The notes under the pieces are model-generated. The model was not told the origin of the DNA. It searched no databases and saw only the letters and a list, made by a program, of their open reading frames with translations. Of a DNA stretch of 64,000 bases, positions 9,212 through 22,330 are shown piece by piece. The first letter of the stretch is position 1; every line of letters begins with the position of its first letter. Source of the stretch: Spirilliplanes yamanashiensis (lineage in GTDB: Bacteria > Actinomycetota > Actinomycetes > Mycobacteriales > Micromonosporaceae); NCBI RefSeq assembly GCF_016863475.1, contig NZ_BOOY01000042.1:1-64000 (forward strand), read 5' to 3'. Position numbers and translations under genes: made by a program.

Positions 9212-10360
9212 CTAGAACAGGTCGTCGCGGGAGGCCACGTCGACCGCGGCGCGGATCGCCGGTGGCGCCGACACCACCACGCACCGGCCGCCGCGGGCCA
9301 GTAGCACGCTGCGGGCCGCGTCGAGGATCTGTTCCACGCGCAGCGGGGACAGCCCGCGGGGCAGGACCGCGTGCACCGAGCCCACCCCGGCGCTGCCCCG
9401 GACCGGCACGGCCACCCCGGCGGCGTCGCGCAGGGCGTAGACCGCGGCGTGCAGGTCGGCGATGGGGACGGTGACGCGCAGGGCCACGTCGTCGGGGCCG
9501 AACGGGTAGCGGCCCCACCACGGCGGTGCGGTGCCGGAGACGGTGGCCGACGGGCCGAGGAGGTCGGCGATGCGGGCGGCGCGCTGGCGGGCGGAGACCG
9601 GGCCGCCCTCTACGAGGACGACGAGGGTGCCGGGCTGGTCGGCGCCGGGGGCGGGCAGGTCGACCTCGATGGCGGACGGGTCGGCGTCGGCGGCGAGGAT
9701 CTGGGCGACCAGGTCGTGGACCTGCAGCGGGGTCCACACGGGGCAGCCGGCGTAGATGCGGGTGTCGGGGATGGTCTGCACGCGGACGGTGGCGGCGAGG
9801 ATGACGCCGTCGGGCGGGCGCAGGTCGTCGGGTGGGGCGGTGACGGCGGCGCCGCCGGGCAGGACGTAGGAGACGGCGCTGACCTGGGCGCTGGGCGGGC
9901 CGTAGCGGTGGCGCAGCGGGCCGGCCTCGTTGGTGGCGAGGACGCCGCCGAGGGAGGCGTCGGCGGACGGCGGGTCGAGGGCGAGGCGCTGGCCGTGCAG
10001 GGCGAGGGCGCGCTGGACGGCGCGGACGGGGGTGCCGGCGCCGACCTGGGCGGTGCCGGCCTCGGGGCGGTGGTCCCAGATGCCGGCGAGGCGGGCGGTG
10101 TCGAGGATGAGGTCGACGCCGGGCGGGGCCCAGCCCCAGTCGATCTTCGTGCCGGAGCCGCGGGGGACGACGGCGAGGTTGCGGGCGGTGGCAAGCTGGA
10201 GGGTGTCGGCCACGGCGGCGTCGGTGCCGGGGGCGGCGACCCAGCGGGCCTGGCGGCCGGCGACGGTGTCGGCGGGCCCGCCGGGGCGGGCGAAGTGGGG
10301 GCCGCAGATCTCGACCAGTGCGCGCAGCACGGGTTCGCGGGAGGGCAGCGGCGTGGTCAT
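9212..10360 (-). CDS. FAD-binding oxidoreductase, GlcE-like
   Basis: 382 aa from ATG 10360. The N-terminal half is a PCMH-type FAD_binding_4 domain (VVPRGSGTKIDWG, GAGTPVRAVQRALA, DASLGGVLATN). The C-terminal half resembles GlcE, the FAD subunit of glycolate oxidase, or a stand-alone flavin dehydrogenase. No glcD/glcF partners are nearby, so the substrate is unknown. Start choice is uncertain: GTG 10438 is in frame and sits exactly 7 nt after a good -10 (TACGAT, 10451-10446), which would make the mRNA leaderless and the protein 408 aa; the extra 26 residues do not look domain-like. A LexA-like box overlaps that promoter. Confidence 0.85.
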   Translation of the reverse strand: MTTPLPSREPVLRALVEICGPHFARPGGPADTVAGRQARWVAAPGTDAAVADTLQLATARNLAVVPRGSGTKIDWGWAPPGVDLILDTARLAGIWDHRPEAGTAQVGAGTPVRAVQRALALHGQRLALDPPSADASLGGVLATNEAGPLRHRYGPPSAQVSAVSYVLPGGAAVTAPPDDLRPPDGVILAATVRVQTIPDTRIYAGCPVWTPLQVHDLVAQILAADADPSAIEVDLPAPGADQPGTLVVLVEGGPVSARQRAARIADLLGPSATVSGTAPPWWGRYPFGPDDVALRVTVPIADLHAAVYALRDAAGVAVPVRGSAGVGSVHAVLPRGLSPLRVEQILDAARSVLLARGGRCVVVSAPPAIRAAVDVASRDDLF

Positions 10361-10445: not shown

Positions 10446-10462
10446 ATCGTACACATGTTCGA
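10446..10462 (-). promoter_or_regulatory. LexA-like SOS box overlapping the promoter of the GlcE-like gene
   Basis: TCGTACACATGTTCGA at 10447-10462 matches the Gram-positive/actinobacterial SOS box TCGAAC-N4-GTTCGA with a single mismatch. On the minus strand the -10 hexamer TACGAT (10451-10446) lies inside the box edge and is followed by 7 nt and an in-frame GTG. A repressor bound here would block the oxidoreductase promoter. The divergent oligopeptidase promoter is about 45 bp away and less likely to be affected. Confidence 0.55.
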
Positions 10463-21597: not shown

Positions 21598-22041
21598 ATG
21601 CTCAAAGGCTTCAAAGACTTCATCATGCGCGGCAACGTCGTCGACCTGGCGGTCGGTGTCGTCATCGGCGCGGCGTTCACAGCGGTCGTCACCGGCTTCA
21701 CCAACGCGTTCCTCAAGCCGCTGATCCAGCTGCTGGGCGGCGGCACGGGCGTCGGTGCGGGCTCGTGGGACGTCGACGGCGTCAAGTTCGACTACGCCAC
21801 CTTCATCAACGCCGTGATCACCTTCCTGCTCACCGCCGCGGTGATCTACTTCCTCGTCGTCTACCCGCTGAACCGGCTCGCCGAGCGCCGCAAGCGCGGC
21901 GAGGAGCCGCCGCCCTCCGCGCCCAGCGAGGAGGTCAAGCTGCTCACCGAGATCCGCGACGCGCTCGTCGGCGCCCAGCTGTCCGGCGACCGCCGGTCCG
22001 CCCTCGACGACGTGCTGAACCGGGAACGCCGCGAGCAGTAG
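21598..22041 (+). CDS. mscL: Large-conductance mechanosensitive channel MscL
   Basis: 147 aa. The N-terminal helix and first membrane segment (GFKDFIMRGNVVDLAVGVVIGAAFTAVV) are the MscL signature. The second membrane segment is FINAVITFLLTAAVIYFLVV, followed by a charged cytoplasmic helix bundle. Start ATG 21598 with AGGAG 5 nt upstream; the GTG at 21592 overlaps that site and is rejected. Releases solutes on hypo-osmotic shock. Its place beside stress-signalling genes fits an osmotic theme, but it has its own upstream region. Confidence 0.95.
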   Translation: MLKGFKDFIMRGNVVDLAVGVVIGAAFTAVVTGFTNAFLKPLIQLLGGGTGVGAGSWDVDGVKFDYATFINAVITFLLTAAVIYFLVVYPLNRLAERRKRGEEPPPSAPSEEVKLLTEIRDALVGAQLSGDRRSALDDVLNRERREQ

Positions 22042-22066
22042 AAACGTCGCCGTGCCCCGCACCCGT

Positions 22067-22089
22067 TCGAACACATGTTCGATTAGAGT
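22067..22089 (+). promoter_or_regulatory. Perfect LexA (SOS) box overlapping a leaderless promoter
   Basis: TCGAACACATGTTCGA (22067-22082) is a perfect match to the Gram-positive/actinobacterial SOS box TCGAAC-N4-GTTCGA. It is followed after 1 bp by a -10 TAGAGT (22084-22089), then exactly 7 nt and the ATG at 22097. LexA bound here would cover the -35 region and touch the -10, so DNA-damage induction of the next gene is predicted. Confidence 0.8.
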
Positions 22090-22096
22090 GCGGGGC

Positions 22097-22330
22097 ATGG
22101 AACAGCGCAAGCACTGGTGGAACGGCAAGTGGGGCCGCGCGGTCCGCAAGGACGTCTACCTGCGGACCAACGGCGATCAGTGGTACGTCGAGCAGCGCGC
22201 CGGCGGCGCGGACGGCGTCTCCCACTTCTTCGAGTACGACAGCGAGGACGCCGCCCTCGACACCGTCCGCGCGCTGCTCGTCGGCGCCGACGACTGGCGG
22301 GAGCTGAGCCCCCGCCCGCCGGGCGTCTGA
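22097..22330 (+). CDS. Small protein of unknown function under a LexA box
   Basis: 77 aa, soluble, rich in Trp and charged residues (WWNGKWGRAVRKDVYL; DQWYVEQRAGG; HFFEYDSEDAALDTVRALL). The C-terminal half resembles a small alpha/beta fold, but no family is recognised. No Shine-Dalgarno sequence; the mRNA is predicted to begin at the ATG. The perfect SOS box just upstream marks it as a DNA-damage-inducible gene, so it could act in damage signalling, repair or inhibition of division; none of these is shown. It is monocistronic, as the next gene starts 53 bp later with its own leader. Confidence 0.85.
   Translation: MEQRKHWWNGKWGRAVRKDVYLRTNGDQWYVEQRAGGADGVSHFFEYDSEDAALDTVRALLVGADDWRELSPRPPGV

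Follow-up and report, generated by a model that had tools for sequence, protein, structure and literature searches.

The window (64,000 nucleotides of Spirilliplanes yamanashiensis DNA, i.e., the whole stretch analyzed here) contains a gene for a 77-amino-acid (77-aa) protein, P0001, whose expression is, judging from the DNA sequence, very likely to be controlled by LexA, because an SOS box is kept upstream of all 80 orthologues compared and of 139 of the 140 members of its branch, and upstream of none of the 18 members of a sister branch. The gene had been put forward in a preliminary description as a new candidate member of the SOS response, and this proposal is supported by the branch-wide conservation of the box and by the occurrence of the same motif at the genome's own lexA and recA genes; the further suggestion of a small damage-response effector is tentative. 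The family, which is without a curated name in the libraries searched (Pfam, NCBIfam, and PADLOC), very probably represents a real and unstudied part of the SOS response. The function that we tentatively favor for its product, binding of DNA or other nucleic acid by a WGR-like domain, is weighed below against three alternatives.

Promoter architecture

The features of the locus are as follows (window coordinates):
22067..22082, no strand assigned: LexA (SOS) box TCGAACACATGTTCGA, a perfect palindromic match, conserved in orthologues
22084..22089, + strand: -10 hexamer TAGAGT, directly after the box, with TANNNT at the same place in 80/80 orthologues
22096..22097, + strand: predicted transcription start, at or adjoining the A of the ATG (leaderless), from spacing
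22097..22330, + strand: 77-aa gene (product P0001), ATG at 22097, stop included
22112..22138, + strand: signature HWWNGKWGR (residues 6 to 14), the most conserved stretch of the family
21598..22041, + strand: mscL (Pfam MscL), conserved neighbor 5' of the 77-aa gene, a synteny marker outside the SOS unit

One base separates TCGAACACATGTTCGA from TAGAGT and 7 nt (22090 to 22096) separate TAGAGT from the ATG, and the box fills the spacer 5' of the -10 hexamer, which is a promoter-blocking position. The exact match to the SOS box, the adjoining hexamer, its distance from the ATG, and the extent of the gene, all of which had been read from the sequence earlier, were borne out at these coordinates. 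The box is the only perfect match to TCGAACANNTGTTCGA in the window, where 10 occurrences with up to three mismatches compare with 1.02 expected, and perfect TCGAAC-N4-GTTCGA sites number only three in the 6.5-Mb genome. The genome's own lexA gene has boxes scoring 11, 11, and 10 of 12 letters, and its recA gene has two boxes of 10 letters each; since both genes carry the motif, it can be assigned to the host's own LexA, and the 77-aa gene has a better box than either of them. As in the part of the Streptomyces venezuelae LexA regulon covered by the available text of PMC9380542, the site fits the consensus (tCGAAC-N4-GNNCGa), overlaps the promoter, and recurs at the genome's own lexA and recA; unlike the targets in Table 1 of that paper, the 77-aa gene is absent from the table. 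The same text describes most S. venezuelae LexA targets as being without a known function.

The mRNA of the 77-aa gene is probably leaderless, as had been proposed, and this reading of the promoter spacing is well supported by the position of the TANNNT hexamer, which ends 6 nt before the start codon in 74 of the 80 orthologues and 7 nt before it in the other 6. An alternative GTG start at 22052, upstream of the ATG, was judged unlikely because the conserved protein starts with MEQRK and the distance from the ATG to the -10 hexamer is fixed. A dyad reaches past the LexA box (arms 22050-22062 and 22088-22100, 92% complementary, within 22050 to 22100 of the window), and in the window 11 of the 12 pairs formed between the two flanks of the box are complementary. 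Over 92 promoters, flank pairing averaged 8.16 of 12, compared with 6.95 when partners were swapped (largest, 7.30), an excess driven by part of the lineages.

Conservation of the box in orthologues

The nearest named relatives of the window genome are members of Paractinoplanes and Actinoplanes. Among the best 80 of 117 orthologues found in named genomes, each of the 80 has, upstream of the start, a box matching in 11 or 12 of the 12 letters, which begins 28 nt before the start in 74 and 29 nt before it in 6. Elsewhere in these 80 loci, 777,605 positions were scored, of which none reaches 11 letters and only 36 reach 10. The preliminary description had named a lack of box conservation before orthologues as a finding that would speak against its proposal; the box proved to be kept in all 80 and in 139 of 140 members branch-wide. 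A chance origin of the box was ruled out by the window counts, the orthologue-locus background, and the branch-wide conservation. An mscL gene precedes the orthologue by no more than 1 kb in 76 of the 80 loci, the four exceptions all belonging to Salinispora. Synonymous divergence exceeds nonsynonymous divergence in these orthologues (median pS, 0.40; median pN, 0.099), a pattern of purifying selection that identifies the 77-aa open reading frame (ORF) as a real gene.

Two branches of the family and viral copies

A search of 61 genomes yielded 54 family matches, all of which were inspected upstream and which fall into two branches, assigned by protein pattern rather than by a tree, with either the HWWNGxWG signature or a Cys-Pro stretch (CPx). 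Boxes scoring 10 or more of 12 letters lie within 100 nt upstream of 36 of the 37 HWWNGxWG-branch members, the lone exception being a truncated copy (L172; 8 of 12), and of none of the 17 CPx-branch members. Twenty more regions, drawn from weaker and middling matches of the family survey, gave 19/19 for the HWWNGxWG branch and 0/1 for the CPx branch, and a second bacterial family of the order contributed two more members with boxes (2/2), one further member being already among the 54. Taking all sets together, boxes of at least 10 letters precede 139/140 HWWNGxWG-branch members and 0/18 members of the CPx branch, the figures being counts of loci, some of them present in two sets (e.g., L005/L054 and L008/L079), and not of independent species. 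The box is kept down to approximately 30% protein identity, including in the second bacterial family and two phage contigs. The predicted damage control would be almost invariant in Actinoplanes, Micromonospora, Salinispora, their relatives, and two viral contigs; sister-branch genes without a box, found in those genomes too, serve as a natural control. In many of the CPx copies (L114, L115, L121, L122, L127, L164, L166 to L171, and others), a TATACSGT-like element lies just 5' of the start, which suggests another promoter for this branch, either constitutive or differently controlled.

Within the bacterial family of the window, one or the other branch is represented in 142 of 200 genomes and in 31 of 44 genera, and as many as six diverged copies occur in one genome (G024). 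A class-wide search, in which 15 first-look candidates were scored per genome, gave at least 3 positives among 394 genomes, all from the same bacterial family, and across the searches, relatives were found nowhere but in Micromonosporaceae-type genomes, one further family of the order, and viral contigs. The earlier statement that the product belongs to no recognized family stands as far as curated models are concerned, P0001 having no match in Pfam or NCBIfam at an E value of ≤1 and the family no curated PADLOC model, but fails in that relatives are numerous. The open papers listed on WGR domains and bacterial SOS, on LexA in actinobacteria, and on Micromonospora and Actinoplanes do not describe the family, which is a clear target in the search for a new SOS step in antibiotic-producing bacteria.

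Two IMG/VR contigs (L135 and L136) carry an HWWNGxWG-branch gene, both with a box (of 10 letters in one and 11 in the other). Each viral copy is a lone gene whose orientation is the reverse of its neighbors' (approximately 4956 to 5222 in L135 and 4974 to 5267 in L136). Nearby ORFs, read from their translations, include a 453-residue integrase-like and a 496-residue terminase-like protein in L136 and lysozyme-like and tail-like proteins in L135. A third viral match (L150) proved spurious, lying within a long protein unrelated to the family, and is outside the counts. The annotated phages and plasmids searched contained no family match, and a scan of 10 members with PHROGs profiles gave a best E value of 0.026.

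Properties and predicted fold of the 77-aa protein

P0001 is hydrophilic (GRAVY, -0.89; pI, 5.6) and split in charge, with 8 Lys/Arg and 4 Asp/Glu in residues 1 to 35 and 3 and 9, respectively, in the remainder; its first half is basic and tryptophan rich (HWWNGxWGRxxRRD). SulA, YneA, SosA, and DinI are known small SOS effectors. The 77-aa gene resembles theirs in being a small single gene behind a LexA box; unlike the membrane-bound SOS division inhibitors, P0001 is very hydrophilic, contains no hydrophobic stretch that could form a transmembrane segment of their type, and it has no sequence match to the small effectors. An AlphaFold2 model built from 52 sequences (pLDDT, 82.5; pTM, 0.68) predicts a fold of four strands (residues 2-8, 18-25, 28-35, and 42-47) and one helix (50-61). 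Alignment to solved structures placed WGR domains of PARP1 to PARP3 in all of the first eight rows (Z, 6.9 to 6.3; 68 to 74 of 77 residues covered; rmsd, 2.4 to 3.2), nearly level with AP2 (Z, 6.1) and SAGA (Z, 6.0) chains, and all fold matches lie below the Z score of 8 under which, as the alignment tool warns, a match may reflect a common arrangement. Foldseek found no PDB match at an E value of ≤0.001, and the best match among viral models was a "WGR domain-containing protein" (probability, 1.00; TMq, 0.66; E, 0.019). In the model of the phage member L135 (pLDDT, 76.3), the PARP2 WGR domain ranked third (Z, 6.4), below SAGA chains (Z, 6.8 and 6.7).

P0001 may resemble the WGR domain (PF05406; PARP1 to PARP3 and MolR-type proteins), to judge from its predicted strand-strand-strand-helix order and the top or near-top structural matches, but differs from it at the sequence level. 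None of 28 members reached the Pfam gathering cutoff for WGR, P0001 itself having no match, and profile comparison with actinobacterial WGR domains was not significant (1% probability). The one match among the 28 (L026 residues 34 to 60; E, 0.052; 14.1 bits versus a cutoff of 22) is of a strength that 28 trials would produce by chance, although its register agrees with the one predicted by the fold. In that register, itself not significant, the position of the WGR motif reads Q-R-A, and the N-terminal KWGR lies elsewhere, so the motif seems to be absent from its expected place. The available text of PMC8190142 describes binding of the PARP2 WGR domain to 5'-phosphorylated DNA ends through Trp151, Lys130, Lys183, Tyr201, Arg153, and Asn127; P0001, aligned in the weak register noted above, would lack counterparts of the PARP2 motif's Trp and Arg. 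A further difference from PARP and MolR-type proteins is that P0001 stands alone, with no catalytic domain. E. coli MolR, a WGR protein, is described in the available text of PMC8533742 as a member of the LexA regulon, which may be taken as a precedent for WGR proteins in damage regulons but not as proof.

Other candidate relationships were rejected. DUF6504 (PF20114), a domain that lies near ImuB polymerases, matched only L135, which has a longer N terminus (E, 0.039; 14.7 bits versus a cutoff of 24.2); profile comparison gave 1%, and the domain is absent from the genome. A PADLOC match of 1 of the 28 members (E, 0.041) and the best PDB matches by sequence (BRE2; E, 0.23 and 0.39) were taken as chance.

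Proposed function and alternative explanations

Under LexA control, the repressor, bound to its box downstream of the -35 region and upstream of the -10 hexamer, would block RNA polymerase; on DNA damage, activated RecA would promote LexA self-cleavage, and lifting of repression would yield a leaderless mRNA for the 77-aa protein. The palindrome might instead be the operator of another repressor or be conserved for a reason unrelated to LexA. This is very improbable: the dyad of some lineages does extend 12 nt to both sides, which is more than LexA needs, but the core exactly matches the motif before the genome's own lexA and recA, and the box-less sister branch indicates that the protein family does not need the palindrome.

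As for the product, we envisage a soluble, stand-alone WGR-like domain (a three-stranded sheet, a helix, and an extra edge strand) whose HWWNGxWGRxxRRD half would bind DNA or other nucleic acid at sites of damage or recombination, the protein acting as an accessory or protecting factor. Nucleic acid binding is favored because the first half is basic and tryptophan rich and the arrangement is WGR-like. The box, the promoter spacing, the conservation, the box-less sister branch, and the phage copies are observations, and LexA binding, induction, the fold relationship, and DNA binding are inferred; the statement as a whole, DNA binding included, is held with somewhat less than even confidence. 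Nearly as likely, if a little less so, is a LexA-controlled product that binds and modulates another protein, be it RecA, LexA, a polymerase, or part of the machinery for division or replication, in the manner of the E. coli SOS proteins DinI and SulA. The small soluble size, the conserved aromatic and charged surface, and the phage copies with their own SOS promoter, as expected of a tuner of damage signaling, would all suit such a modulator; the searches run, however, gave no sequence or fold match to one, and no partner gene is co-conserved, mscL (76/80 loci) having no evident link to repair. It is quite improbable that the gene originated in phages as a growth inhibitor or toxin-like gene (a moron), moved into chromosomes, and stayed there under SOS regulation. 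Such an origin would agree with the lone opposite-strand genes in the two IMG/VR contigs and with the several diverged copies per genome (up to six in G024), but the main copy, syntenic behind mscL (76/80) and under purifying selection, looks like a core gene, and it has no antitoxin neighbor; PADLOC matched only 1 of 28 members (E, 0.041). Returning to the nucleic acid-binding domain, its most far-reaching form, which we regard as rather unlikely, would be a degenerate stand-alone WGR-type module that reads broken DNA and serves these actinobacteria and their phages as a dedicated SOS effector: a bacterial counterpart of the break-reading part of PARP whose synthesis follows only upon damage, LexA control having been lost, or never acquired, in the sister branch.

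Other LexA-like boxes in the genome

The two other perfect boxes of the genome lie outside the window. One, on contig C1 near 102883, is 9 nt before an ORF (L001, 1-1491, - strand) that had no Pfam match at 0.001 but reads as a radical-SAM protein, which we take to be of the Rv2578c type, with a putative intein interrupting the GCSHACSYC motif at its final cysteine. The other (L002, 1501 to 1516) precedes a 167-aa protein with a weak match, below the cutoff, to a model of F420-dependent PPOX-class oxidoreductases (TIGR03618; E, 3e-8). Within the window, a second box, TCGTACACATGTTCGA (11 of 12 letters; 10447 to 10462), lies upstream of a gene for an FAD-binding oxidase (9212 to 10360, - strand; Pfam FAD_binding_4). 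Boxes of at least 10 of 12 letters occur within 260 nt upstream in 8 of 12 loci of relatives, its own included, and the gene is a candidate for a further SOS gene.
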